Assembly: GCA_021730845.1 (NCBI GenBank)
Contig: JAKFYL010000009.1
Location: 1 to 44,447, forward strand
DNA from: Planctomycetota bacterium
Lineage (GTDB): Bacteria > Planctomycetota > UBA1135 > GCA-002686595
DNA length: 44,447 bases
Reading direction: 5' to 3'
Positions 30,893 through 44,447 of the stretch are shown in pieces. Under the pieces are notes generated by a model, which was given only the letters and a program-made list of their open reading frames with translations, searched no databases and had not been told where the DNA came from. How positions within the stretch are numbered: position 1 is the first letter of the stretch; each line of letters opens with the position of its first letter. Made by a program: the position numbers and the translations under genes.

Positions 30893-31319
30893 GGTTCGTT
30901 CCTGATAGCGTCCCTGGTTAAGCAACTTAGGTGAAGTATTTTCGTCGGCCAGCGGCCCAAGGTGTAAGAAGCGAGTCTTCCAAATGGCTTGCTAGGGCTT
31001 TCCCCCAGAGCCACCATCCAGGCTTGCAACGTTGGGCCAGGTTGTGGTCCTACGCTGGTAAGTCCTCTGCCTTTTAGATTGGGGCCCGCCCAGCGTCACG
31101 CCCATTCCAAGAATTTCAGTGCCTGGATTGCGTTGCCGACTAGGGCTGGTCAAGTTGGGGCAGGCACGCAAGCCAGCTAGTTTCCGGCAAGACTGCCCAA
31201 GTAGTACCGGTGCAGGCGGCCGAAGCGGAACAGCGGCAAGCTCCCGAACTCGCTCTTGGACTCGCCATTTTGGCATTGCCATCTGGGACCGATGGAGTGC
31301 GTTGTGGGAGGAGTCCAAG
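30893..31319. other. Intergenic region between divergent operons
   Basis: This 427-bp gap separates DUF1800 (minus) and the 306-aa gene (plus). It should carry promoters in both directions. I find no convincing small gene, long palindrome or repeat; composition drops slightly in GC around 30920-30990. Confidence 0.4.
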
Positions 31320-32240
31320 ATGGACGAAAACTCGATTCCATCCGCTTTCAAAATGCGCCTGCAGCGGATCGAACAGAGCTCGACTGCGGGCGTCGCCGTC
31401 GGCCGCACATACCTCCTGCGTAGCCTGTCCACGGGAGAGCACGACATTCTCGGGGCGTTCGAGGTGCTCGCGCAAGACGACAAGAGCGCGACGATTGCTT
31501 GGCGCGTCCTGAAACGTTGGGAGATCCCGCGCACGCGCAGCAGCGACTGGCCGGATCCCTTGGCGCACGTTCCACCTCCGCCCGAAAACCTGAGCGCACT
31601 CTCCACGGACGAGCTCATCGGCCGCCGAACGGATCTCGCGGCTCGAGCCGAGAAGAAGATCCTCGACCCGTCGGAAGGTCTCGACCCGGATCTCCGAAAA
31701 AAATATGCGGCGCAGCCGAACGGCGGTTTGGCGCGCATCGCCGAGCGCGGGCGCTGGGACGCGCTTCTCTCCATGGATGGCGGTGGTGCCTTCTGGTCGT
31801 TCACCCAGCGGTCGAACGACTGTCAAAAAGAAGCGCAGATTACGCTGCAGCAGGGCCGCTTCACTTCGGGGTTCGCCGGCCGCGACCGTGGCTACGTGCT
31901 CGACTTGGGGGCGATGCCGCTGGGAGATGTCGGCCTGCGGTCGGACTTCCCTTTGCTCGACCAGCGCGGGCGTGAAGCCACCGCGTTCCTATTCGACCTC
32001 TCGCCCGTGCCCATGGCGGCGAACCGTACGGACCTCGAGATCAGCCAGGCCGACAACGAGCGCGCGGGAGAGCTCGGCCTCAGACACGGCGCGCAGGCGA
32101 CGATCGGGCACACGTACCTCGTGCGCTCGGTTCAAACTGACAAGCAGGACGTTCTGGCTGCATTTCAAGTCCTCGCCCGCGATGAGGGTGGATTGACCCT
32201 CGCCTGGAAGATCCTGCGTCAACAGCCCGCATCGAGGTGA
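31320..32240 (+). CDS. Protein with the same ~43-residue module at both ends
   Basis: The 306-residue product starts at ATG 31320, with an excellent ribosome site (GGGAGGAG, 31306-31313, 6-nt spacer). Residues ~26-67 (VAVGRTYLLRS, GAFEVLAQDD, IAWRVLKRW) and the last ~40 residues (ATIGHTYLVRS, AAFQVLARDEG, LAWKILRQQ) are clearly homologous copies of one small beta module. The central part includes GRWDALLSMDGGGAFWSF and a DRGYVLDLGAMPLGDV segment that may be another beta-sandwich. There is no signal peptide, so it is likely cytosolic or secreted by another route. No family is recognised. It is transcribed toward the sigma-fusion gene, 227 bp away. Confidence 0.7.
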   Translation: MDENSIPSAFKMRLQRIEQSSTAGVAVGRTYLLRSLSTGEHDILGAFEVLAQDDKSATIAWRVLKRWEIPRTRSSDWPDPLAHVPPPPENLSALSTDELIGRRTDLAARAEKKILDPSEGLDPDLRKKYAAQPNGGLARIAERGRWDALLSMDGGGAFWSFTQRSNDCQKEAQITLQQGRFTSGFAGRDRGYVLDLGAMPLGDVGLRSDFPLLDQRGREATAFLFDLSPVPMAANRTDLEISQADNERAGELGLRHGAQATIGHTYLVRSVQTDKQDVLAAFQVLARDEGGLTLAWKILRQQPASR

Positions 32241-32467
32241 TCATCAACCGGCGCTGGTGATCGACCCGAGACACGCGGACGTCTTTCGGCGGTATAGAGG
32301 CCTTAGCGCCCGCGACCCCCCTCAAAAAAAATGCTCGGTCTCTAACGCCAGGGAAGGTCGCGCGCTACCGGGCGAGCTCGGGCGGCGCGCGAATTCAGCT
32401 GCGGGGCACGAATACCCTGCGCCTGCTGCAACGTCCACGCCAGGCGTGGCGTCTAATACTGGTGGCG

Positions 32468-34486
32468 ATGCCCAATCCCAGGACCTATTGCACCGACGAG
32501 TTGCTGCGCCACGCCGGCTGGCTCCGGCGCGTGGCCGTTCGCTTGGTCGGTGAGGTCGATGCCGCGGACCAGGTGCAGGCCACCTGGCTCGCTGCGTTGC
32601 GCCATCGCCCGCACAATCCCGGTCCCTGGTTGCGCCGCGTGCTGCACAACCACGCGGTGAGCGATGTTCGCCGCCGGTCGCGGGCACGCACGCGCGAGAT
32701 CGCGCATGCGAGATCCGAAGCTTTGCCGTCGACCTCGGACCTCGCCGCGCACGCCGAGATGACGGGTCTGCTCCTCGAGGCCGTCCTGCGGCTGAAGCCC
32801 GCGCAACGCGACGTGATCTTGCTGCGCTACTTCGACGAGCTGCCGCACGCCGCGATCGCGCACAGGCTGGGCATGCCGCCGGCAACGGTGCGCAGCCACC
32901 TGGCGCGCGGCCTCGAACAACTGCGCCACGACCTCGACGCCGCGGCCGGCGGCGATCGAGACCGCTGGATGCGCGCGCTCGCGCCGTTCGCGTCCACCAC
33001 GCTCTCCACGACGAACGCGAGCGCCTCCGCTTCACTCTTGCTCACGGCACTTTCCATGACCTCGACCCAGAAGATCGCCGCCGGTACGCTCCTCGCCATC
33101 GCCTTCCTCGCCCTCGCGTCGAAGCAGCTTGGCATCCTCCCGTCCGAGCCGCCGGCGGTCGCAGAGGAGCCGCGGGCCGCCCTGGAGGGCATCGACCGCA
33201 GCGAAACGCCGCTGGATCACGGCAGCGTGAGCCCCACGCGCACGCCAGTGGACGGACATGCGATCACCGACCCGCCGCGCGTCCCTACGCAGCGCATCCG
33301 GGTGGTCCATGCCGCGACCGGAGCGAGCGTGCCGCACGCGACCGTCCTGTACTGCAAGAGCGGTTTCGTTTGGGATGAGCTCGACGCGCGAAGCAAGGAG
33401 GAGCACTCGCTCATGGCCGAGGTCTTCCTGCAGAAGCATGGCGAGACAAAGACCGCGGACGAAAACGGCATCGTCCAAGTCCCGCTCGCGGTCGCGAGCC
33501 TGGTCATCGTTGGGCGCAAAGGGGACCTCTACGGCACGGCCATCGAACGCAAGGACGACGCCGTCTGGCAGCTCGCGCTGTCGCCACATGGCTCACTCGT
33601 CGTCGAATTGTTCGATGACCTCGGCGCGCCCGTCGAGGGAGTCCGGATCCTCTGTACAGACATGTCCTTCGCGAACGTGTTCCGGGTGGACTTGCCCCTG
33701 GGCACTACGGACGAACACGGCCGCGTGACCCACCTGTTCCAGGTGCCGCAGGCTCGAGACGAGGCGCTCGAGTCGCCTGCGCTCGAAGTCCTGCGCAAAA
33801 GGCTGACGGTGTTCGCCAGCCTGCCCGGCGGCAAACACGGCGAGTTTGCCTTCGATCCCGCAGACCCGCCGCGCCAGCCCGTGCGCATCATCCTTCCGGC
33901 GACCGGGACCGTGAGCGTTCTGGTCCTCGATCCCGCGGGGAACTACCTGGATCCTGCCACCCTCGGCGACCCGAACGTCGAGATCACTGTGGCCGACCCG
34001 GCGGTGCACGAGGTGCCGGGTCCGATGCGCGGCCGACAGATCGCCACGATCGCCGCCGACGGCTACGCGCGCTTTTCGAACGTGGTCTGCGGCAAGACAC
34101 TGTCGGTCAGCGCCCCGACGCTGCTGGGCAAGATCGAGTTCGCTGGTCCGAGTGCAGACCGCCGCGATGTTTTGGTGGAGCACCGCATGCACGCCGACCA
34201 TCCTGTCCTCACGGGCCGGCTCGTGAGCGCCGACCGCAAACCCGTGCCGAACACCCAATTCGGGATCATGTGTCGAGGCGACGGATTCCTGACCACGGTT
34301 GGGGTTAGGACCGACGACAAGGGCTGGTTCACGGCCTACCTCCCCGAGAGCGCCATGGGCAAACAAGCAGCCGAGGTCTCAGCGTTCCTGGATTGGCAGG
34401 AACTGTCGCCGGATCGGACCGCGCGCGTGCTCCTGTCGGTGCCGCTGACCGGAATCGTGCAGCTCGGAAACGTCGTCGTGCCTTAG
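32468..34486 (+). CDS. ECF-type sigma factor fused to a membrane anchor and exported domains
   Basis: Residues ~8-75 are a sigma-70 region 2 (DAADQVQATWLAALRHR, PGPWLRRVLHNHAVSDVRRR). Residues ~100-152 are a region 4 helix-turn-helix (PAQRDVILLRYFDELPHAAI, AHRLGMPPATVRSHLARGLE). Instead of ending there, the protein continues through a transmembrane segment (about 203-219, IAAGTLLAIAFLALASK) into ~450 residues of beta-rich domains with carboxypeptidase-regulatory-like motifs (TADENGIVQVPLAV, TDEHGRVTHLF, RTDDKGWFTAYL). The topology puts the sigma part in the cytoplasm and the rest outside. The start is ATG 32468; a GTG two codons earlier is possible. Release by proteolysis, or direct regulation by the outside domain, is inferred. 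Its stop abuts the convergent glycosyltransferase stop. Confidence 0.85.
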   Translation: MPNPRTYCTDELLRHAGWLRRVAVRLVGEVDAADQVQATWLAALRHRPHNPGPWLRRVLHNHAVSDVRRRSRARTREIAHARSEALPSTSDLAAHAEMTGLLLEAVLRLKPAQRDVILLRYFDELPHAAIAHRLGMPPATVRSHLARGLEQLRHDLDAAAGGDRDRWMRALAPFASTTLSTTNASASASLLLTALSMTSTQKIAAGTLLAIAFLALASKQLGILPSEPPAVAEEPRAALEGIDRSETPLDHGSVSPTRTPVDGHAITDPPRVPTQRIRVVHAATGASVPHATVLYCKSGFVWDELDARSKEEHSLMAEVFLQKHGETKTADENGIVQVPLAVASLVIVGRKGDLYGTAIERKDDAVWQLALSPHGSLVVELFDDLGAPVEGVRILCTDMSFANVFRVDLPLGTTDEHGRVTHLFQVPQARDEALESPALEVLRKRLTVFASLPGGKHGEFAFDPADPPRQPVRIILPATGTVSVLVLDPAGNYLDPATLGDPNVEITVADPAVHEVPGPMRGRQIATIAADGYARFSNVVCGKTLSVSAPTLLGKIEFAGPSADRRDVLVEHRMHADHPVLTGRLVSADRKPVPNTQFGIMCRGDGFLTTVGVRTDDKGWFTAYLPESAMGKQAAEVSAFLDWQELSPDRTARVLLSVPLTGIVQLGNVVVP

Positions 34487-35752
34487 TCAGCGCCTGAAGA
34501 ACGTCCGCTCGATGGCGTCGCAGGCGGTGTCGACACCGCGCTCCGTGCGCACCTTGGCGGCCACGCGTTCAGCCGCCGTGGCGTAGGACGGATCGTCGAG
34601 CAAGATGCGCAAGTCGCGCGCCGCGCGGCCCGCACGGTAGCGCCGCGACGACAGCACGCGCGCCATGCCCAGGCGGGCCGCGCGATACGCGTTGTCCGCC
34701 TGATCGTGAGCGAAGGGAACGCCAAGCATCGGTCGCCCGCTTCGCAGGCTTTGGCCGAGTGTGCCGGCCCCACACTGCTGGACCGTCGTAACGGCGCGCG
34801 GCATCAACAGAGAGTGCGGAGCACGATCCACCGCGAGGATGGTCGACGGAAGGGAAGGCTGCAGCGCCGCCGAATTGCCGGGACCGACGAGCAGCACGGC
34901 TCGCGCGCCGAGTGCCTGCGTCGCCTCGATGCTCTCCCCCCAAAACCTTCCCGGGTCCAGCACGGCGGACGAGCCAAGGGTGAAGACGATCGGTGGAGGG
35001 CCCTTTGTGAGGAACGCCTCGAGGGATGCCTCGAGTGTGGTGCCATGCGCCCGATCGTGGAACATGTGCCCGGTCACCACCACATTCGGGGGCCAGTCGG
35101 GTTGCGCGGCTCCCAACACTCGGGAGTACATGGCCAGCACGAGGTGGGGCGAGTGTTGGCCATCGAAGATCGGGACGAGGCCGGGTGGAAGTCCCAGTTC
35201 CTTGCGGAACGCCTCGACGGGACGCGCCCACTTTCTGGCGCTGGCCTTGCCGCCGGCGACTAGGAGCCTGTTGAACCAGCTTCCAAGGATCTCGAGCTTC
35301 TTGAGCCAGGGGGCCGGTGGCAGGACCGGCATGTCGGTCGGCGAGAAGAAGGACATCGGTGCGAGGACCGTGCTTGCCCACGGAACGCGGTGCTTCTGTG
35401 CGTAGATCGGAACCGCGAGTGAGAGCGGATGGCTGATCAGGAGGTCGGCGCCCCGCGCGGCGGCGCTCACATCCTCGAACTGCTCCCGCACCGCAGGAAA
35501 GATCAGGTCTTCGAGCAGGTTCTTGGGACCGTGACTCACGTCCATGATCTTCCGGACGGTGGCGGTGTCCCCTGGGTCCGCGTACGGGCGCAGGGGAAAG
35601 AAGTCGAACCCATCGCCGGTCACGAGGGCGCGGAAGTACTCCAGAGTCGCCACGGCGACGGAGTGGCCCCGTGCCCGTAGACCAAGTGCCAGGCCGATTG
35701 AGGGATCCACGTCGCCGTGGGAACCCCAGCAGCAAAGGACAATGCGTGCCAT
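34487..35752 (-). CDS. UGT-type (GT1/MGT-like) glycosyltransferase
   Basis: The 421-residue product starts RIVLCCWGSHGDVDPSIGLA, the N-terminal signature of macrolide/sterol-type UDP-sugar transferases (G-S-H/R-G-D). The C-terminal nucleotide-sugar domain has LGSSAVLDPGRF and ends with the acceptor/donor cleft motif CGAGTLGQSLRSG.. PFAHDQADNAYRAARLGM. In relatives that motif is HHGGAGT; here HH is QQ, so the histidine that contacts the donor phosphate is missing. ATG 35752 is chosen over earlier frame positions because it gives the family N-terminus. The stop directly abuts the sigma-fusion gene. The acceptor is unknown: lipid, sterol-like or natural product. Confidence 0.85.
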   Translation of the reverse strand: MARIVLCCWGSHGDVDPSIGLALGLRARGHSVAVATLEYFRALVTGDGFDFFPLRPYADPGDTATVRKIMDVSHGPKNLLEDLIFPAVREQFEDVSAAARGADLLISHPLSLAVPIYAQKHRVPWASTVLAPMSFFSPTDMPVLPPAPWLKKLEILGSWFNRLLVAGGKASARKWARPVEAFRKELGLPPGLVPIFDGQHSPHLVLAMYSRVLGAAQPDWPPNVVVTGHMFHDRAHGTTLEASLEAFLTKGPPPIVFTLGSSAVLDPGRFWGESIEATQALGARAVLLVGPGNSAALQPSLPSTILAVDRAPHSLLMPRAVTTVQQCGAGTLGQSLRSGRPMLGVPFAHDQADNAYRAARLGMARVLSSRRYRAGRAARDLRILLDDPSYATAAERVAAKVRTERGVDTACDAIERTFFRR

Positions 35753-35937
35753 GGCGGGAAAGGTATGGGGAGCGCCGGCTTGGCCCAAACGCCGGGCCCT
35801 CATGGCGCAACGGGGCCTCGGCCTAGCGTACTAAGGATGTTCCTCGCTCTGAACGTACGCGCCGGACCCGACGCATCATGACCGGTCCCTTCGTGTAGGG
35901 ACCTGAGGAAAGTTCCGACCTGCGATTGACTGGTCCT

Positions 35938-36113
35938 GGATTGCGATGAACAAGATTTCGCACACCTTGGAGCTACGAAGGCGCGCTCCATGCGCAAAGC
36001 ACGGGTCTCGCGGCGCAAGCGTGTGAGCTCTGCGCGCTCCCCCGTGGTCGGCGGCACTGCAGCGTTGCTACCGCATCGATCGCGGGCTGCTTGACCCACT
36101 TGCGCAGCACGTT
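35938..36113 (-). pseudogene. IS3-family OrfA remnant (frameshifted)
   Basis: On the minus strand, NVLRKWVKQPAID (starting at 36113) runs in one frame, and TTGERAELTRLRRETRALRMERAF runs in the next. Together they match the helix-turn-helix end and leucine-zipper of IS3-family OrfA transposases, but with a frameshift between them and no OrfB or 5' part. It is an old, inactive fragment. Confidence 0.5.
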
Positions 36114-36120
36114 GGGGGGG

Positions 36121-36201
36121 GGAAAGGCAGTCCAAGCAGACGACCCTGGGGTCACACCCTAGGGCGGCTGAGCGTTTCTATTGCAGCCCGCGCTCGCGAG
36201 C
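36121..36201 (+). repeat. Dispersed ~80-bp repeat, copy 1
   Basis: It contains the conserved core TCCAAGCAGACGACCCTGGG, then GTCACACCCTAGGGCGGCTG. CCCTGGGGT and ACCCTAGGG can pair around a CAC loop. It shares a 27-nt identical core with copy 2 and lies in the same orientation. Confidence 0.75.
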
Positions 36202-36322
36202 GTCGGAAACCTCCAGAGCGCCAGATAGTCCTTCTGCCCCTCCGACGCCCGAGCGCCTGGGATGGGGCCTAAGTTGGCCGTGTGACCCGAGCATCTGCAT
36301 CCGCTAGCTAGAAGCCTGCGCC

Positions 36323-38257
36323 ATGATCGAGCACGCCCCGACTACGGATACCCGCCCCGTGGCGCTCGTTTCGATGCCCTGGCAAGCGCTCAACGCGCCG
36401 AGTCTCCAAGTAGGGCTGCTCAAGGTGCTGCTCGAACGCAAGGGCATTCCCGCGCGCGCCCACTCGCTGCACCTGGGATTCATGGACTTCCTCGCGACGG
36501 TTTGTGCCGGCGAGAATCAGCCCTTCACCGCCGAAGACTATCGATTCATCTCCGACCGCTGGGCCGAATTGGCGGTCGGTGATTGGATTTTCGCGACCGA
36601 AGCCGTGCGCGCCGCATCGCCGCAGAAGGACAAGCGCTACGCCGAGCTGCTCCAGCACCGTGGAATGCACAGGAAACTGCTCGAACGCTTGCAACGGTTG
36701 CGTCGTCGAGTGCCCGCGTTCCTCGCGTCCGCTGCGGACGAGGTGCTCGCGGGGTCGCCTTCCGTCGTCGGATTCACACTCACGTTCACGCAGACGTTCG
36801 CCTCGATTGCGCTGGCTCACGAGTTGAAGCGGCGGGACCCCAGACTCAAGGTCGTGATCGGAGGAGCAGCTTGTGCGGCGCCGATGGGCCGCGGCCTGCT
36901 TGAGGCCTTCCCATGGATCGATGCTGCCGTCAGCGGCGAGTCAGAGGCGGTTGCGCCGGCTCTCTTCCAGGCGCTTCGTGAGGGAGCAGATGTGCCCTAT
37001 CTTCCCGGGGTCGCGCGCCGCGTCGGTGATCGGGCCGCGCCGGCGCCCCCAGAGGGCAAGCGCTCCGCCATGGACGACGTCCCGCGACCCGACTTTGACG
37101 AGTACTTCGAACGCCTCGGGCGCTCCCCGATTCGCTCCGTGGTGGCGCCGCACATTCCTTTCGAGAGTGCGCGTGGCTGTTGGTGGGGCGAGAAATCGCA
37201 TTGCACGTTCTGTGGCCTGAACGCCATGGACATGGCCTTCCGCAGCAAGAGCCCGGAGCGAACCATCGACGAGTTGATGGAGCTCTCGACGCGCTACCGT
37301 GTTCTCGACTTCACGGCGGTCGACAACATCATCGACCGCGGGTATTTGAAGTCGGTGATCCCGGCCCTCGCGTCGCGCGGGCTCGACCTCCGCATTTTCT
37401 ACGAGTCCAAGGCCAACCTCAGCCGCGAAGAGATCCGCCTCCTGCGACAGGCGGGCGTGCGCAAGCTTCAGCCGGGTATCGAGAGTCTCTCGACCCACAC
37501 GCTCAAGCTGATGAAGAAGGGCGTCACGGGGCTCCAGAACGTGCGCATGCTCAAGTGGTGCGCGATCGAGGGGATCGAGGTCGCTTGGAACCTCTTGTTC
37601 GGGTTTCCTGGCGAGCTCGCCGAGGAGTACGACGCGATGGCCGAACTCGTGCCGTCGCTCGTACACCTCCAGCCGCCGGCGCTCGGCCAGATCGTGATCG
37701 ATCGTTTCAGTCCCTATCACGACTCGCCCGGGGACTACGGCATCGAACTCACGCAGCCGGCGGTCCACTACCCGCTCTTGTACGACGTCCACGAGCCTGT
37801 ACTCCTGGAGCTCGCGTACACCTTTCAGCACCGCTACGTTGACGGGCGCGATCCGCGCGACTACGTCGCTGGACTATCGAAACGCCTGCGTCAGTGGCAG
37901 AAGGACTACGACCGCAATCGAGGCGCACTCCGCTTTCGGCGTGGCCCGGGTTACTTGCACATTGCCGACACGCGCACGACGACCGAGAACGCCGGTTACG
38001 AACTCCTCGGCCTCGAAGCAGCCGTCTACGACGCGATCGATGATGGCGCCAGCGTGGAACGCGTCCGCGCGCGGGTCGCCGCGACTCTCGGAGAGACACC
38101 CTCGGACAAGGATCTGCGGCGAGTCCTGGGCGAGTTCGTGGAGGCTCGCATCGCCATGGAGGAGCGCGGGCGCTTCCTGTCGCTAGCGCTCCCCGTCGAC
38201 GGCGCATCCGCGCCGATCCTCCGCCAGTCAGACGCCACGCGCCAGGCGTCGTCCTAA
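36323..38257 (+). CDS. B12-dependent radical SAM RiPP maturase (rSAM C-methyltransferase type)
   Basis: The 644-residue protein has an N-terminal B12-binding-like domain (about 12-235, with VGFTLTFTQTF and VIGGAACAAPM) and a radical SAM domain whose cluster cysteines follow the unusual spacing C286-X7-C294-X2-C297 in GCWWGEKSHCTFCGLN. That sequence is the hallmark of the RiPP maturation radical SAM family (TIGR03975-like). These enzymes modify ribosomal peptides, often by C-methylation of precursors with nitrile-hydratase or Nif11 leaders. Later motifs include KLQPGIESLSTHTL and LLFGFPGE. I found no precursor peptide on either side. The gene is bracketed by direct repeats, and a UGT is divergent from it. 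Confidence 0.85.
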   Translation: MIEHAPTTDTRPVALVSMPWQALNAPSLQVGLLKVLLERKGIPARAHSLHLGFMDFLATVCAGENQPFTAEDYRFISDRWAELAVGDWIFATEAVRAASPQKDKRYAELLQHRGMHRKLLERLQRLRRRVPAFLASAADEVLAGSPSVVGFTLTFTQTFASIALAHELKRRDPRLKVVIGGAACAAPMGRGLLEAFPWIDAAVSGESEAVAPALFQALREGADVPYLPGVARRVGDRAAPAPPEGKRSAMDDVPRPDFDEYFERLGRSPIRSVVAPHIPFESARGCWWGEKSHCTFCGLNAMDMAFRSKSPERTIDELMELSTRYRVLDFTAVDNIIDRGYLKSVIPALASRGLDLRIFYESKANLSREEIRLLRQAGVRKLQPGIESLSTHTLKLMKKGVTGLQNVRMLKWCAIEGIEVAWNLLFGFPGELAEEYDAMAELVPSLVHLQPPALGQIVIDRFSPYHDSPGDYGIELTQPAVHYPLLYDVHEPVLLELAYTFQHRYVDGRDPRDYVAGLSKRLRQWQKDYDRNRGALRFRRGPGYLHIADTRTTTENAGYELLGLEAAVYDAIDDGASVERVRARVAATLGETPSDKDLRRVLGEFVEARIAMEERGRFLSLALPVDGASAPILRQSDATRQASS

Positions 38258-38308
38258 TCGGTGAGTGTCCCGAGTCTCGTCGACTCGGAATCGGCACCTG
38301 CCGGGGGC

Positions 38309-38388
38309 GATAGGAGATCCAAGCAGACGACCCTGGGGTCACACTCTAAGGCGGCTGAGGGGTTCTCCGCAGCCGGCGCCCGCTCAAG
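38309..38388 (+). repeat. Dispersed ~80-bp repeat, copy 2
   Basis: It starts with GATAGGAGATCCAAGCAGA and shares 27 identical consecutive bases with copy 1 before diverging slightly (ACTCTAAGG for ACCCTAGGG). It begins 51 bp after the radical SAM stop, in the same orientation as copy 1. Confidence 0.75.
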
Positions 38389-38509
38389 CGGAGCCTACGT
38401 CCGGATCGGCCCCTTTTTGGCACAGATCTTTGGATTCTTGGCGGCTTGTTGAGACTCAGGACGTTTTTTGGTCAGCGGCAATCAGCGCGCCTTCTCACGC
38501 CACGGTCTC

Positions 38510-39535
38510 ATGACAATGCACACCACTCGTAGTTCCACGTGCCCCACTCTCGGCCTACTCCTCTCACTGATCGCATCGAGCTGCTCTGCATTGAGGGTCC
38601 ACGAGCTGGTTCCTGGATCGAATTCGACCACGAAGTCGACGATCGAGCGCCTCGAAGGCCTGCCCTTCTTCCGGAAGGTCGGAGCGTTGCAGCAGACGAC
38701 TACTCGCAGCAGGACCTATCGCTCCGTGACGTTGACCATGCACGAGGATGCTCACGAGGTTGGCCCGAACGGCGCGACAGCCACCACTTCGCGCATCGTC
38801 GACTCGTTGCAGGTCCCCGTTAAGGAGTCGAGCTGGGACGAGGTCGTGGTCAAGGCCGTGATCGACACGATGCCGCTCGATCCGAGCAAGGCACCCAGCC
38901 TAGCCTGCGTGGTCGCGCTCCTGGTGCCACAGGCCAAGCTCGAACCGATCTCGCCGGCAAAGATGATGGAACTCTTCGACGTGGAACGACTGGCCAGCGG
39001 AGGATTGGCGCCGGGTGAGCACGCGCACGACCAGGTCCTCGACAACACGGTCGCGGAAGTGGCCGTGGTCGACTACGGCACGACGTACTTCGTCAACGCC
39101 GTCACGCCGCTCTTTGGAACTGCCAGCCTCGGCGTCAAGCTCGCCGGTGACGGCACCCTGAACGAGGTTTCCGCGGAGGTGGATGCGACCAAGCTCGCTG
39201 ATCAGCTCCCGATCAAGGAGTTCCTCTCGTCGAAGCTGTTGCCGGCGGCGGCCGCAGCTGCACTCGACACGAATGCGACCCGGCGTGTCCAGTACCGCCT
39301 CGTGGTCTCGGCTGTTCCCCAGGGCTATCGATATGTTCTCACCCACACGGAGTGCATCTCGACTGACAAGGACAAGGATTCTTCGGACCGCAAGCGAGCT
39401 CCCCTGACCTACGCGAATGCGCAGACGATCACGCGCAAGTCGCTGTCCGATGCCGGCTCGACTGGACCGGCAGCGCAGCCCATCTTGGCCGTTTCCGGTA
39501 CTGTGAGCCAACTGCCACAGGACAAGAAGCCGTAG
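38510..39535 (+). CDS. Putative lipoprotein, unknown function
   Basis: The 341-residue product has a lipoprotein signal with a cleavage region LLSLIASSC near residue 25. The mature protein is a long alpha/beta domain without recognised motifs: LPFFRKVGALQQTTTRSRTY, then repeated VALLVPQAKLEP and VAVVDYGTTYFVNAVTPLFG segments with a regular strand pattern. Two ATGs (38510, 38516) can serve as start; no clear ribosome site separates them. It lies between repeat copies 2 and 3, and it is convergent with the secreted propeller gene. Confidence 0.7.
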   Translation: MTMHTTRSSTCPTLGLLLSLIASSCSALRVHELVPGSNSTTKSTIERLEGLPFFRKVGALQQTTTRSRTYRSVTLTMHEDAHEVGPNGATATTSRIVDSLQVPVKESSWDEVVVKAVIDTMPLDPSKAPSLACVVALLVPQAKLEPISPAKMMELFDVERLASGGLAPGEHAHDQVLDNTVAEVAVVDYGTTYFVNAVTPLFGTASLGVKLAGDGTLNEVSAEVDATKLADQLPIKEFLSSKLLPAAAAAALDTNATRRVQYRLVVSAVPQGYRYVLTHTECISTDKDKDSSDRKRAPLTYANAQTITRKSLSDAGSTGPAAQPILAVSGTVSQLPQDKKP

Positions 39536-39613
39536 TCGTTGGTGGGGGAGCACGGTCAGTGGCATCGTCGCATGGCCCCTGCAGTTCGCGAACGCTCAAG
39601 GATCCACCAACGA
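39536..39613. other. Spaced inverted repeat between convergent genes
   Basis: TCGTTGGTGG (39536-39545) and CCACCAACGA (39604-39613) are perfectly complementary, 58 nt apart, just after the lipoprotein stop. The spacing is long for a terminator hairpin but could fold. The rest of the 263-bp convergent gap shows nothing else. Confidence 0.35.
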
Positions 39614-39798
39614 TCTGCAGGTGTACTGCCTCGAGGCGCTCGAGCTGAAGTCCTGTTGACCTTGCGATCCAGCCGAGGACGATGACGCGCCGCGTGGACA
39701 CCAACTGGCACATCGAGCGCGCCGACCGGAATTTCGCTCGGCGTGCGATTCGGCATCGACGCGCCCGGCCCTGCGCTGGTCGGGCGCGTGCGTTGCGC

Positions 39799-41457
39799 CT
39801 ACTGGAAGACAACCTGGCGCGCGTCGCTGAGGTTGAAGGTCGAGTTGCCGGGCCCCTGCGGGTCGCGGTACCAGGACTGGAAGTTGTGCGTGGAACCCGG
39901 AACGATCACGCCGGAGAACGGCGGCGCCTGCAGATTGAGCGCAAGCTGGATCGTGCCCTGGGGCGTGGCGGCCTTGATCGGCAGCACGCGAATGACCGTG
40001 CCGCCCAGGCACAGGAAGCCGTCCCCGAAAGGTACCTGCGCCTGCTGCGGCGCGAAGATGAAGAGACCCGCCAGATTGGGCGGGATTCCTTGCGCGGCCA
40101 GCAAGACGTTGTTGTTCGCGACCACGGTGCTGCCGTAGGCGGTGATCGAAGCGCCCGGGCCGGCCGAGTTCGGCGCGCCCACGCAGTAGGACGTGCCGAT
40201 CTCGGGCAAGTTCTCCACCAAACGCGCGGTGTCGCCGCCGGTCACGAACACGCTGCCGACCTGGTTGCCCAAGGCGAGGCCCGAAGAGTTGGAGCCCGTG
40301 GTCGTCACGGTCCAGGCCGACGTGCCGTCTGCGCGCACCTTGCAGACGGCCATTTCGAACAGCGTGCTCGCCGCCAGGTAGGCGTTGTTCGAAGCGTCGA
40401 GCAGCATGTGCGCGTGAAGCAAGAGGGCCAGGGGGCCGTCGGCGTCGAGGTTCGACCACAGGAGCGACCCGGCGGGATCGACCTTGAAGAAGGCTGCTCC
40501 AGCGGTGTTTGAGTTGGGGAAGCCGGAGACCACGGCCGCCTGGTCGCTGCCGACTTCGATGCGGAAGCCCGACGAGGGATAAGCCTTCTCCCACAGGAGC
40601 GCGCCTTGGGGGTCGAGCTTCTTGATCACGGTGCCGCCGTTGCTGACGAACTCGCCGTGCACGAGGTAGCTGTTGCCCAAAGCGTCGCCCGCCGCGTCGC
40701 CGACGGTGAGACTCTGTACGCCGGGCAAGCCCCACACCGAGTTACCCTGACGATCGACGCGCGCGTAGCCGTTGAGCGAACCGAAGAGCGCGCGCCCCGT
40801 GACGACCATGTCGCCGCCTGGCGCGAACTTGAAGTTCACGGGGAGGCCGATGCCGTAGGGATCGAGCCAAGTCCACTGCGGGGTGCCGTTGGAGGCGAAC
40901 TTCTTGATCTTGGTGATCGCGGGGCCCTTGCCCAGCACGTAGGCGTTGTCGGCCTCGTCCAGCAGCAGCTTGCGCGTCGACGAGCCGTCAAAGCTGCTCT
41001 CGTACAGGATGCGGTACAAGGGCGTGCCGTCCGCCGCGAACTTGAGCAGAATGCTCGCCGCCTCGACGGGGTTGGAGAAGCCCGACATCAACGTGCCGCA
41101 CACCAGCACGGCGCCCTGGCTGTCGACCGCCACCCACTGGGCGCGCTCCCACTTGGTGCTGTCGGTCTGGTCGATCTCCGCCACCCACAGGAGGTTGCCG
41201 TTTACGTCGCGCTTGGTGACGGTGATTTCGGTGCCCAGGTTCTGATCGTAGTCGGCCGTGAAGGCGTTGTCGGCAGCGTCGACCGCGACCATCACGCCGC
41301 GCGTGTCGACCACCCAGTCGACCTGGACCTGGCCCTGCGCGACGGCGGCGAATAGTGCCAGCGCGGCCAGTCCGCTTGCCGCGCGTCGTGCGACGAGGGC
41401 CCGGAGTGTTTGGGGATGCCTGCCTTGGATCAAGATGTCGTTCGTGTTCATGGGCAT
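39799..41457 (-). CDS. Secreted beta-propeller with planctomycete C-terminal domain
   Basis: The 552-residue product has a signal peptide (hydrophobic AASGLAALALFAAVAQG, cleavage before QVQVD). Residues ~45-400 hold regularly spaced propeller strands of the type VAVDAADNAFTADYD, VTKRDVNGNLLWVAEID and LLDASNNAYLAAS, like bacterial quinoprotein or delta-60-repeat proteins. The last ~130 residues (from SYCVGAPNS to the end) contain PFGDGFLCLGG and NFQSWYRDPQGPG, matching the C-terminal domain of the 1002-aa secreted protein. ATG 41457 is preferred because AGAGAG lies ~5 nt upstream. Confidence 0.82.
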   Translation of the reverse strand: MPMNTNDILIQGRHPQTLRALVARRAASGLAALALFAAVAQGQVQVDWVVDTRGVMVAVDAADNAFTADYDQNLGTEITVTKRDVNGNLLWVAEIDQTDSTKWERAQWVAVDSQGAVLVCGTLMSGFSNPVEAASILLKFAADGTPLYRILYESSFDGSSTRKLLLDEADNAYVLGKGPAITKIKKFASNGTPQWTWLDPYGIGLPVNFKFAPGGDMVVTGRALFGSLNGYARVDRQGNSVWGLPGVQSLTVGDAAGDALGNSYLVHGEFVSNGGTVIKKLDPQGALLWEKAYPSSGFRIEVGSDQAAVVSGFPNSNTAGAAFFKVDPAGSLLWSNLDADGPLALLLHAHMLLDASNNAYLAASTLFEMAVCKVRADGTSAWTVTTTGSNSSGLALGNQVGSVFVTGGDTARLVENLPEIGTSYCVGAPNSAGPGASITAYGSTVVANNNVLLAAQGIPPNLAGLFIFAPQQAQVPFGDGFLCLGGTVIRVLPIKAATPQGTIQLALNLQAPPFSGVIVPGSTHNFQSWYRDPQGPGNSTFNLSDARQVVFQ

Positions 41458-41816
41458 AGAATCTCTCTAGGGTTCGCGTTCGCGGGGATCCTGCCGATGC
41501 CCCGGGGCAAGCACCTATTCTCCGGCACGGAACGGACGGCGGAGATCCGGCGAAGGTCGTATTCGGGTGAGACTTTCGGCCACCTCGCCGGCCTCGTCTC
41601 GCGTCCTGTCAGGCCCGGAAGCGCTGTTCGGTGGATAGGAGTTCCAAGCAGACGAAACTGCGGTCACACCCCAGGGCGCCTGAGCGTTTCTCTGGCAGCC
41701 GGCGCCCGCGAGCTTCGCCGGGCCTGGTCTTGGTCGAGGCTGGCTGTGGGCGCAGTTCCTCGAGTGCTCGCGGCTTTTGAGAGCTCCGCGAATCCGCGGG
41801 AGCGCTATTGGATCTC
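41458..41816. other. Intergenic region with repeat copy 3
   Basis: This 359-bp gap lies upstream of the secreted propeller gene and downstream of the small lipoprotein gene, both minus. It contains repeat copy 3 (41634-41713) and presumably the propeller promoter. No gene is seen. Confidence 0.5.
41634..41713 (+). repeat. Dispersed ~80-bp repeat, copy 3
   Basis: It opens GATAGGAGTTCCAAGCAGAC and ends GGCAGCCGGCGCCCGCGAGC. It differs from copies 1 and 2 in the hairpin arm (AACTGCGGT for CCCTGGGGT), so its stem is weaker. Same orientation as the other copies. Confidence 0.7.
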
Positions 41817-42329
41817 CTATCCCCCCCCTAGGTAGCCCAGGCTCTTGAGTCGCGCGATTTCGCTCGGGTCGGTGGCCTTGGTCGCGCGTTGTTTGATCAT
41901 CTCTTTGACATCGACGGCTTTGGGGTCGTCTTTGATCAAGCTTTCGCCGGCAGCGAGCGTTTCGGCGGCCGCGCCCAGGCGATTCTCGTTTACCATGGCG
42001 TTGGCCGTGCGCAGGTAGTCCTTGGCGGTGACTTTGCCGGGATGCGACTTGGCGAGGTCAATCAGCTCCTTTTTCGAGCGCTCCGCGTCGACGCGCACGA
42101 GGGCTTCGACCAGGCCTAGTTTCGCACGCAAGAATTCCGCATCGGTGGGCGTCAGTTTGGTCAGCGCCGCTTCGAAGCTGGCCACTGCCTCCTTGCTCTT
42201 GGCCGAATTAAGGGAGGAGTAGCCGGCGTCGACTTGTTCCTTGGGCGAGCCGCCGCCGCTGCAGCTGCACAGCGCTAAGGCCAAGAGCAGGGACGCGACG
42301 TGGGACCGGTGCGGATCGATGGTAGACAT
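41817..42329 (-). CDS. Small TPR-like lipoprotein
   Basis: ATG 42329 gives a 170-residue protein with a classic lipobox (LALALCSC, lipidated Cys at 23). The mature part is helical with TPR-like pairs (YSSLNSAKSKEAVASFEAAL, LRAKLGLVEALVRVDAE, YLRTANAMVNENRLGAAAET). The C-terminus is the short LKSLGYLGGG, a tail I have the impression of seeing at the ends of other planctomycete exported proteins. It could scaffold a surface or periplasmic complex. Confidence 0.75.
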   Translation of the reverse strand: MSTIDPHRSHVASLLLALALCSCSGGGSPKEQVDAGYSSLNSAKSKEAVASFEAALTKLTPTDAEFLRAKLGLVEALVRVDAERSKKELIDLAKSHPGKVTAKDYLRTANAMVNENRLGAAAETLAAGESLIKDDPKAVDVKEMIKQRATKATDPSEIARLKSLGYLGGG

Positions 42330-42525
42330 GATTGGCAAGCATACGCGGGAACTGCCGGGCAGTTGGCTGGGACGGCGCAGGTCCAAAGCAAGGAGCCTTC
42401 CATGAGAAGGCCCTCAGCAGTCAAGGGAAGGTTTTCGGTTTTTTGCCGGTCGGGACCGGCGCTCTGGAGCTCGGTGGACGGTCGGACCCTCGTCGAATCG
42501 CAGGCTTCCATTCGCACTCGTTGAG

Positions 42526-42545
42526 GCGCCCGCTTGGTGGGGCGC
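42526..42545 (-). terminator. Weak hairpin after the repeat-protein C-terminal segment
   Basis: GCGCCC (42526-42531) and GGGCGC (42540-42545) pair across 8 nt, about 57 bp downstream of the minus-strand stop at 42602. No T tract. Confidence 0.25.
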
Positions 42546-42601
42546 GGTGCATGAGGGGGTCCGTCCGTCAGGCGCTGCTATCTGGCTCACGAGCTCTGAG
42601 C

Positions 42602-43107
42602 TCAAGGCTCCGTCGCAGTCGCCCAGACGGATGGACATGCATGAAACTCCAAGCCGTTGGCCAATCCGGCGGCTTGCGCAGCAGATGGGTCGCGGAACCA
42701 GAGTTGACTGTTCACAACTTGACCGACGATCACCAGCGGCCCACCGATGGGCTCCGCCAGGTACTCAGCCAAGGTGTAGAGCAACGAACCCGTGCACGCG
42801 CCGCTGCCCCGCGAGTTCTTGACCAACAACCGGTAATGTGGCGCCAGAACGCACAGCGTGCCGCCAGAAAACGGCACGTTGTCTTGGCCTGTCGTGCCGA
42901 AGAACAATAGACCGTTCTGATTGGCTTCGAGGCCATTGCCCGCCATGCGAAAATCGGTCGGAACGGCAAGGCTTGGAGAGCAAGTGCAGCACACGATCGG
43001 ACAGCAACTGCTGGAGGAAACCAGTGCCGTGCGGTAGTTGATGCCGGGACCCAGCTCATGGACATCCAGCCCATTTGGCGAGAAAGCTGTCGCCCGCGGG
43101 GCTGCTT
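42602..43107 (-). pseudogene. Frameshifted C-terminal domain of the repeat protein
   Basis: In the frame next to that of the upstream repeat protein, a stretch with no plausible ATG start reads FSPNGLDVHELGPGINYRT, then NQNGLLFFGTTGQDNVPF and FSGGTLCVLAPH, ending GLANGLEFHACP. This is the Cys-containing C-terminal domain found in secreted planctomycete proteins. The frame is open only from 43105, after a TAA at 43106-43108, and it overlaps the end of the repeat gene. The simplest reading is a one-base indel around 43060-43105 that detached this domain, either real or a sequencing error. Confidence 0.6.
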
Positions 43108-44447
43108 ACAAAGGCACCGCCCGCGTACATCGCCGGTCCAGAGCCGTCATCGTAAACCTGGAGTACTGAGACGATGTGGTTCATGCCACTTCCAAGGGGC
43201 GACCAGCTCGAGCCGTTCCATTTCGCGATCCGGTTCGCCGACGCGCCGCCTGCCGTCGTGAAGTAGCCCCCCGCATACAGGGCCGGGCCCAAGCCGTCGT
43301 CGAATGCAGTAAGCGCAAAGACGGGCTCGTTCATGCCGTTGCCGAGCGCCGACCACACCGAACCGTTCCATTTTGCAATGTGCCCCGCACTCACGCCGCC
43401 TGCGAACATGAAGTAACCGCCCGCGTACAGCGCTGGCCCCAAACCGTCGTCGAAAACTTTGAGGTCGGAAACACGCGAAAGCCCGAAACCGTTGCTAACT
43501 CCTCTTCCCAGGGCCGACCAATTCGATCCGTCCCATTTCGCAATTCGACTGGCACGCACGCCGCCCGCGGTCGTGAATTCGCCCCCCGCATACAACGCCG
43601 GACCGGCGCCGTCGTCGAAAACCGCTAGCGCGAGGACCGCACCGTTCGTCCCGCTTCCCAGCGCCGACCAATTCGAGCCGTCCCATTTCGCAATACGGTA
43701 CGCGCGCACGCCGCCGGCGGCCGTGAATTGGCCCCCTGCGTACAACGCCGGGCCGGAGCCGCCGTCGAAGACCGTAAGCGCCGCAACGGTGCCGTACAGC
43801 CCGCTGCCGACCGCCGACCAGCTCGAGCCGTTCCATTTCGCAATGTCGAACGCTTGCACGCCGCCCGCGTTCGTGAAACTGCCTCCCGCGTACAGCGCTG
43901 GACCCGAACCATCGTCGAAAACCGAGAGGGCGTATACCTCATTCCAGTCTTCCATTCCCATTCCGCTTCCGAGCTCGGACCAGCTCGAGCCGTTCCACTT
44001 CGCGATCTTCTTCGCCGGAGCGCCGCCCACGATCGTGAAAGCGCCCCCCGCATACAGCGCTGGGCCCGAACCATCGTCGAAGACCGCGAGCGCACTGACG
44101 CGACCATTTAGCCCGATTCCCAACCCCGACCACCTGGATCCGTTCCATTTCGCGATGTTGCTTGCCGGATCGCGCCCCGCGAGCTCGAACTCGCCGCCCG
44201 CATACAACACTGGACCCGAGCCGTCGTCGATGACGGTGAGGGCCTCAACACCCAATGAAGGAAAACTGACACTAATTCCGCTTCCCAGCGACCACCAATT
44301 CGAGCCGTCCCATTTCGCAATGTTGTTCGCCCGCCCGCCGCCCGCGGTTTTGAATTTGCCCCCCACGTGAAGCGCCGGACCGGTGCCGTCGTCGAAAACC
44401 GCGAGTGCGAGGACCGGATTGTTCGTCCCGCTCCCCAGCGCCGACCA
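43056..44447 (-). CDS. Secreted tandem-repeat protein (5' end beyond window)
   Basis: The frame enters from the right edge, so the N-terminus and signal peptide are missing. It shows nine ~49-55-residue repeats with the pattern IAKWNGSSWSALGSGMN, then V.AL.VFDDGSGPALYAGG.F. Each is a four-strand blade, so this is probably a large beta-propeller or several. DNA of the repeats is also similar (about 150 bp period). It ends LAKWAGCP followed by TGA (43056-43058). Such repeats occur in secreted proteins of planctomycetes and relatives; the ligand is unknown. The following C-terminal domain is out of frame. Confidence 0.85.
   Translation of the reverse strand, partial: WSALGSGTNNPVLALAVFDDGTGPALHVGGKFKTAGGGRANNIAKWDGSNWWSLGSGISVSFPSLGVEALTVIDDGSGPVLYAGGEFELAGRDPASNIAKWNGSRWSGLGIGLNGRVSALAVFDDGSGPALYAGGAFTIVGGAPAKKIAKWNGSSWSELGSGMGMEDWNEVYALSVFDDGSGPALYAGGSFTNAGGVQAFDIAKWNGSSWSAVGSGLYGTVAALTVFDGGSGPALYAGGQFTAAGGVRAYRIAKWDGSNWSALGSGTNGAVLALAVFDDGAGPALYAGGEFTTAGGVRASRIAKWDGSNWSALGRGVSNGFGLSRVSDLKVFDDGLGPALYAGGYFMFAGGVSAGHIAKWNGSVWSALGNGMNEPVFALTAFDDGLGPALYAGGYFTTAGGASANRIAKWNGSSWSPLGSGMNHIVSVLQVYDDGSGPAMYAGGAFVSSPAGDSFLAKWAGCP

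Follow-up and report, generated by a model that had tools for sequence, protein, structure and literature searches.

Genome-mining rules take a match to TIGR03975 (rSAM_ocin_1) as the sign of a RiPP cluster. Enzymes of this family methylate unreactive peptide carbons. The leader-binding domain of RiPP enzymes is PqqD. Two other cobalamin radical SAM methylases, MgmA and Mmp10, methylate methyl-coenzyme M reductase. By published description, PoyC and PoyB of the proteusin polytheonamide have a cobalamin radical SAM architecture with a Cx7Cx2C motif, and PoyC methylates the C-beta of valine (PMC5682303 and PMC11285071). DscE of the discodermin NRPS pathway is described as a cobalamin radical SAM C-methyltransferase that acts on a peptide, and it methylates discodermins in vitro (PMC12858407).

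We analyzed a 44,447-nucleotide stretch of a Planctomycetota genome (the window) together with its source assembly, a set of 487 contigs that totals 4.4 Mb at 88% completeness. The window holds an intact gene that is the sole TIGR03975 gene above cut-off in the assembly. The initial annotation had read its C-X7-C-X2-C motif and the GLN that follows as marks of the RiPP radical SAM C-methyltransferase family, and profile searches bear this out. The protein scores 631.3 bits against TIGR03975, with a curated cut-off of 281.85, and covers the whole model (1-606 of 606), versus 52.6 bits against TIGR04014, the MCR methylase family. The family is already known and the protein is a further member of it. 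The cluster motif reads GC286-WWGEKSH-C294-TF-C297-GLN300, and C286, C294, C297, and N300 are invariant among 23 aligned homologues (alignments A2 and A3, which hold the window and 22 of the 25 homologue loci, with L027, L038, and L049 omitted). Pfam Radical_SAM matches residues 283-442 with 54 bits, above its cut-off, and Pfam B12-binding matches residues 136-214 with 27.7 bits, below its cut-off of 32.1. The gene has a GC content of 65.4%, that of the window being 65.2%, and typical codon usage.

The AlphaFold model of the whole enzyme has a mean pLDDT of 89.5, and in the PDB it most closely resembles the cobalamin radical SAM enzymes TokK, TsrM, OxsB, CysS, and MgmA, with Z scores of 17 to 21 (17.8 for MgmA); Mmp10 matches with a Z score of about 8.5. 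MgmA and Mmp10 share this fold but belong to other sequence families, and their substrate is a known protein. The predicted enzyme has the layout of cobalamin-dependent (class B) radical SAM methylases, an N-terminal cobalamin domain followed by a radical SAM core, and on the model the N-terminal domain is putatively of the cobalamin-binding type. A search of a viral fold library returned nothing at E ≤ 0.001. The features of the locus are collected in Table 1.

Table 1. Features of the radical SAM gene and its flanks, in window coordinates
Feature	Coordinates	Strand	Basis
Radical SAM C-methyltransferase, TIGR03975 family, 644 aa	36323..38257	+	TIGR03975 score; fold matches TokK, TsrM, OxsB, CysS, MgmA
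Putative cobalamin-binding-type N-terminal domain, about residues 10-240	36350..37042	+	Sub-cut-off Pfam B12-binding; fold matches
Radical SAM core with Cx7Cx2C, about residues 275-465	37145..37717	+	Pfam Radical_SAM; motif invariance
C-terminal PqqD/RRE-like winged helix, residues 528-626	37904..38200	+	Predicted model; hhalign
Upstream gap without coding small ORF	35804..36322	.	Codon scores; comparison with relatives
Downstream gap without coding small ORF	38258..38467	.	Codon scores; comparison with relatives

Modelled alone, the C-terminal domain reaches a pLDDT of 92.2 and shows three strands, three helices, and a small hairpin (E9-14, E17-22, E30-35, H36-44, H51-62, and H68-80 of the fragment). 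The structural definition of an RRE, as given in PMC12710340, requires three strands and then three helices, and this is the order seen in the predicted domain. An hhalign comparison with a profile of four PqqD-like proteins of the order gave a probability of 85% and a score of 33.6 over 67 columns, while 100 column-permuted decoys scored at most 15.6 (probability at most 1.6%) and the reversed profile 11.1; with other windows of the enzyme the score increased only where these ran into the C-terminal domain. The lasso-peptide RRE TbiB1 was the joint best row of the structural aligner (Z 8.7, 80 residues, rmsd 2.5), a rank it shares with DNA-binding winged helices, Nur and RosR among them, and the lasso protein TfuB1 matched nearly the whole domain with E 0.058. 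Foldseek found no PDB match for the domain at E ≤ 0.001. Pfam PqqD did not match the window's own fragment at E ≤ 1 and weakly matched 3 of 23 family members, the best at 0.0063. The domain is the least conserved part of the enzyme in comparison with L050 (52% versus 64-77%) but not with L052 (62% versus 48-66%). It probably shares common descent with RRE domains and is a putative binding site for the substrate peptide. Since the domain is a predicted winged helix whose profile resembles that of PqqD, the substrate is still likely to be a peptide, and the RRE-like character favors a peptide or a protein.

No precursor or other RiPP gene linked to the enzyme gene was seen in the window or at the clade loci examined. 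All ORFs of at least 20 aa in the two gaps have negative or near-zero codon scores, the best being +1.0 for a 23-mer versus +31 to +268 for 11 larger genes; the scorer was a crude custom script trained on the same 11 window genes that served as reference. None of the small ORFs is common to relatives, so that the orphan status proposed for the enzyme holds in both gaps. The initial annotation had also stated that neither flank holds a short frame with a Shine-Dalgarno sequence. We indeed found no 4-nucleotide match before any gap ORF of at least 20 aa, yet this absence is uninformative because only 3 of the 11 larger window genes have a match of at least 4 nucleotides and the radical SAM gene itself is not among them. 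By codon scores and comparison with relatives, a precursor in the flanks was ruled out. Rfam gave no match up to E 1 over 31000-44447 and hence no RNA or riboswitch near the gene.

Several other features of the window were noted. An intergenic direct repeat of about 80 nucleotides, 82-84% alike and on the same strand, is present at 36118-36205, 38305-38392, and 41630-41717. The three copies bracket the radical SAM gene together with the two genes that follow it. A search with a narrow pattern found only these three, but BLAST revealed a fourth copy at 1453-1538 of contig C357, where paralogues of window genes are its neighbours. The copies fold no better than shuffles. We dropped the idea that the repeat is the border of a mobile cassette, given the fourth copy on C357 and a similar arrangement in none of six relatives' loci. 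In the protein encoded at 32462-34486, an ECF sigma factor is joined to a long C-terminal portion that gives a weak carboxypeptidase-regulatory-like match. A gene at 43056-44447 is made of repeats of about 150 nucleotides, and a similar gene on C357 adjoins a paralogue of the gene at 41817-42386.

Homologues at E ≤ 1e-30 are carried by 10 of the 154 genomes of the order. The nearest are in G031 (68% identity), G030 (67%), and G009 (59% and 50%), so that an identity of 67-68% is kept in another genus and one of about 50-68% across other genera, with all domains present. In a maximum-likelihood tree of 49 homologues, the window enzyme falls in an 11-row clade with an SH-aLRT of 100; the tree was reduced from 51 rows by dropping L073 and L059, which duplicate the loci L031 and L036, respectively, and L049, a weak match only, was left out. 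The clade consists entirely of Planctomycetota: eight rows come from the order of the window, and Stieleria, Rhodopirellula, and strain TBK1r account for the other three. Strains of Stieleria/Rhodopirellula carry the lineage that is sister to the others (L025-L027). Placing the homologue hits by the tree, we find clade members in 7 of the 154 genomes of the order.

Among the clade members examined, the neighbours of the gene vary from one to the next and none is a RiPP gene; they include a sulfatase-TPR protein, a methyltransferase, a release factor, an alpha/beta hydrolase, a secretion ATPase, a MAM-domain protein, and a TonB receptor (the Pfam scan of clade neighbours covered 10 proteins, and L055 and L018, truncated at contig ends, show one flank each). 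Three Pirellulaceae-type loci have neighbours in common with one another. An all-against-all ORF comparison of the window with the loci of its three nearest orthologues found no common neighbour beyond shadows of the radical SAM gene and weak matches, namely, one that links window 42605-43105 with secreted proteins of L052 and L053 and one of the sigma-factor type to L054. In a search for an empty site between G030 and G031, two genomes of one genus, G031 showed no close copy of the two proteins that neighbour the G030 homologue. Directly after the radical SAM gene of strain TBK1r lie three to four 81-nucleotide tandem repeats (L026 7915-8237).

A conserved precursor in the gaps of relatives had been named beforehand as the finding that speaks against an orphan enzyme, and none emerged. 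Small ORFs within 3 kb gave 0 pairs at E ≤ 0.01 among nine clade loci (L018 and L027 not included, and L025-L026 matches excluded from the counts), versus 2, 0, and 1 pairs in three shuffles. Neither a precursor nor an export gene, as expected of a RiPP cluster, stands beside the enzyme at the window or the clade loci compared. The orphan status is a property of the clade and not of one assembly. In a literature search confined to openly licensed full texts, we found no published description of this lone clade in the titles and passages covered.

We searched for four RiPP markers only (NHLP, Nif11, peptidase C39, and PqqD), of which divergent leaders may escape the short models. In the window genome, at 88% completeness, no leader precursor of the kind that defines a proteusin or Nif11 pathway was found: TIGR03793 (NHLP) and TIGR03798 (Nif11) gave 0 matches in its contigs at E ≤ 0.01. 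The absence of an NHLP precursor from the assembly sets the enzyme apart from PoyC and PoyB. Within the order, where alone Nif11 was searched, each of the two leader types is found in 3 of 154 genomes. G030 is the only genome of the order with both an NHLP leader and a homologue, and its leader adjoins two further paralogues, at a distance of roughly 52 kb from the orthologue. Of 20 genomes, 4 have peptidase C39, including the clade genomes G030, G031, and G064, and 5 have PqqD, none of them among the seven clade genomes; neither has a match in the window genome, and both were dropped as pathway markers.

The premise that the family usually adjoins an NHLP or Nif11 precursor is weak. NHLP leaders were found in 3 of 34 homologue-carrying genomes, seven of which are clade genomes, in a non-random sample drawn by similarity to the window enzyme, in which G480 and G511 probably represent a single organism and G515 probably corresponds to G030. 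NHLP linkage is not the rule in this sample. Other family members have NRPS genes beside them (L042 of Kutzneria and L044 of Planctomycetota, both over the TIGR03975 cut-off), or subtilases (L031 and L086), or housekeeping genes, and the L057 member is near a SPASM radical SAM enzyme, an ABC transporter, and a Cys/Asn-rich candidate precursor.

Several small ORFs and leaders at other loci were also noted. Cys/Asn/Asp-rich candidate precursors with repeated N-and-C units occur near TIGR03975-like enzymes at L057 (13893-14501, minus strand) and L103 (G065 C29:94763-95086). An NHLP-type precursor lies beside two TIGR03975-like enzymes in G030 (L058 12243-12947, minus strand). A short ORF upstream of the radical SAM gene, perhaps a precursor, is conserved across two Acidobacteriaceae loci (L040 4430-4840 and L046 4646-4867), and a low-complexity ORF with repeated GGLTGGT units (L082 4314-4811, minus strand) is near the radical SAM gene of G386. 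NHLP leaders are also present in two genomes of the order without a homologue of the window enzyme at E ≤ 1e-30 (G121 C41 and G126 C74). Outside the window's clade, lone TIGR03975-like genes stand beside gyrB (L083) and mgtE (L084). The Cys/Asn-rich precursor of G005 was rejected as the substrate of the window enzyme, as it occurs in 2 of 154 genomes and is absent from the window genome.

Our best explanation, to which we give an even chance, is that the enzyme is a stand-alone cobalamin-dependent radical SAM peptide C-methyltransferase whose substrate, a ribosomal peptide or protein, has its gene at another place in the genome. By analogy with PoyC, it should methylate an sp3 carbon by means of a 5'-deoxyadenosyl radical and methylcobalamin. 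Methylcobalamin would sit in the N-terminal domain, and a [4Fe-4S] cluster in the Cx7Cx2C core would cleave SAM to yield the 5'-deoxyadenosyl radical. Hydrogen abstraction by this radical would occur at an unactivated sp3 carbon of the substrate, probably C-beta, the position that PoyC methylates, and the methyl group would come from methylcobalamin. Binding of the substrate peptide would fall to the PqqD/RRE-like winged helix, and the gene for this peptide would be unlinked to the enzyme gene. The computations show family membership, a predicted fold, a lone setting in the examined clade members, and the resemblance of the C-terminal profile to PqqD; methyl transfer, peptide binding, and a substrate in trans are what we infer for this enzyme. 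Several points speak against it: no substrate was found, C39 matches are present in the three clade genomes mentioned above, the C-terminal domain gave the ties, the negative Foldseek and Pfam PqqD results, and the low conservation against L050 described above, some family members adjoin NRPS genes, and the incomplete assembly may lack a precursor.

Among the alternatives, the best placed, though unlikely, is that the substrate is a single conserved resident protein, methylated in the way that MgmA and Mmp10 act on theirs, with no RiPP involved. The lone gene in unrelated contexts, the clear fold match to the protein-modifying MgmA, and the window genome's lack of all four markers are consistent with it. 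However, the patchy distribution of the clade in the order is unlike that of a housekeeping modification, and the best sequence match is to TIGR03975 and not to the MCR methylase family. A version of this idea that we regard as less likely still is that the cluster-free Planctomycetota clade has departed from RiPP biosynthesis and acts as a C-methylase of a resident protein of the cell, with the RRE-like domain as a protein-recognition module. If true, resident-protein C-methylation would be a bacterial counterpart of methyl-coenzyme M reductase methylation.

It is also doubtful, and a little more so, that an ordinary RiPP precursor lies with its pathway at another place in the genome or in sequence absent from the assembly, its leader being of a type outside the NHLP and Nif11 models. 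The precursor may be missing from the assembly because this is incomplete, and the leader models did miss the Cys/Asn-rich candidates that G005 and G065 have near their family members. Against this, the remaining clade loci in the comparison are likewise without a linked small ORF, and since this absence recurs across the clade, gaps in one assembly do not explain it. Slightly less probable again is that the enzyme acts in the tailoring of a nonribosomal peptide whose genes lie at another place in the genome. As some family members adjoin NRPS genes, a ribosomal substrate is not a given, and the action of DscE on discodermins, as published, is a precedent (PMC12858407), although DscE, unlike the window enzyme, is encoded inside an NRPS cluster. 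The two NRPS-associated members pair by themselves in the tree, far from the window's clade, and no NRPS is among the annotated neighbours of clade members. A decaying relic of a lost cluster is very improbable: partner genes are lacking, but the ORF is intact with typical codon usage, the cluster cysteines are invariant, and sequence identity and all domains are kept in other genera.

The observations bear on how TIGR03975 matches are interpreted. A sponge-microbiome study discarded clusters called by the TIGR03975 rule as likely false positives, and this step fits the finding of a lone clade (PMC9426513). That a lone clade with a PqqD-like domain is conserved suggests that something else lies behind some TIGR03975-based cluster calls. 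The clade also offers a defined set of genomes in which to hunt for the substrate, including bacteria of the Rhodopirellula and Stieleria type.
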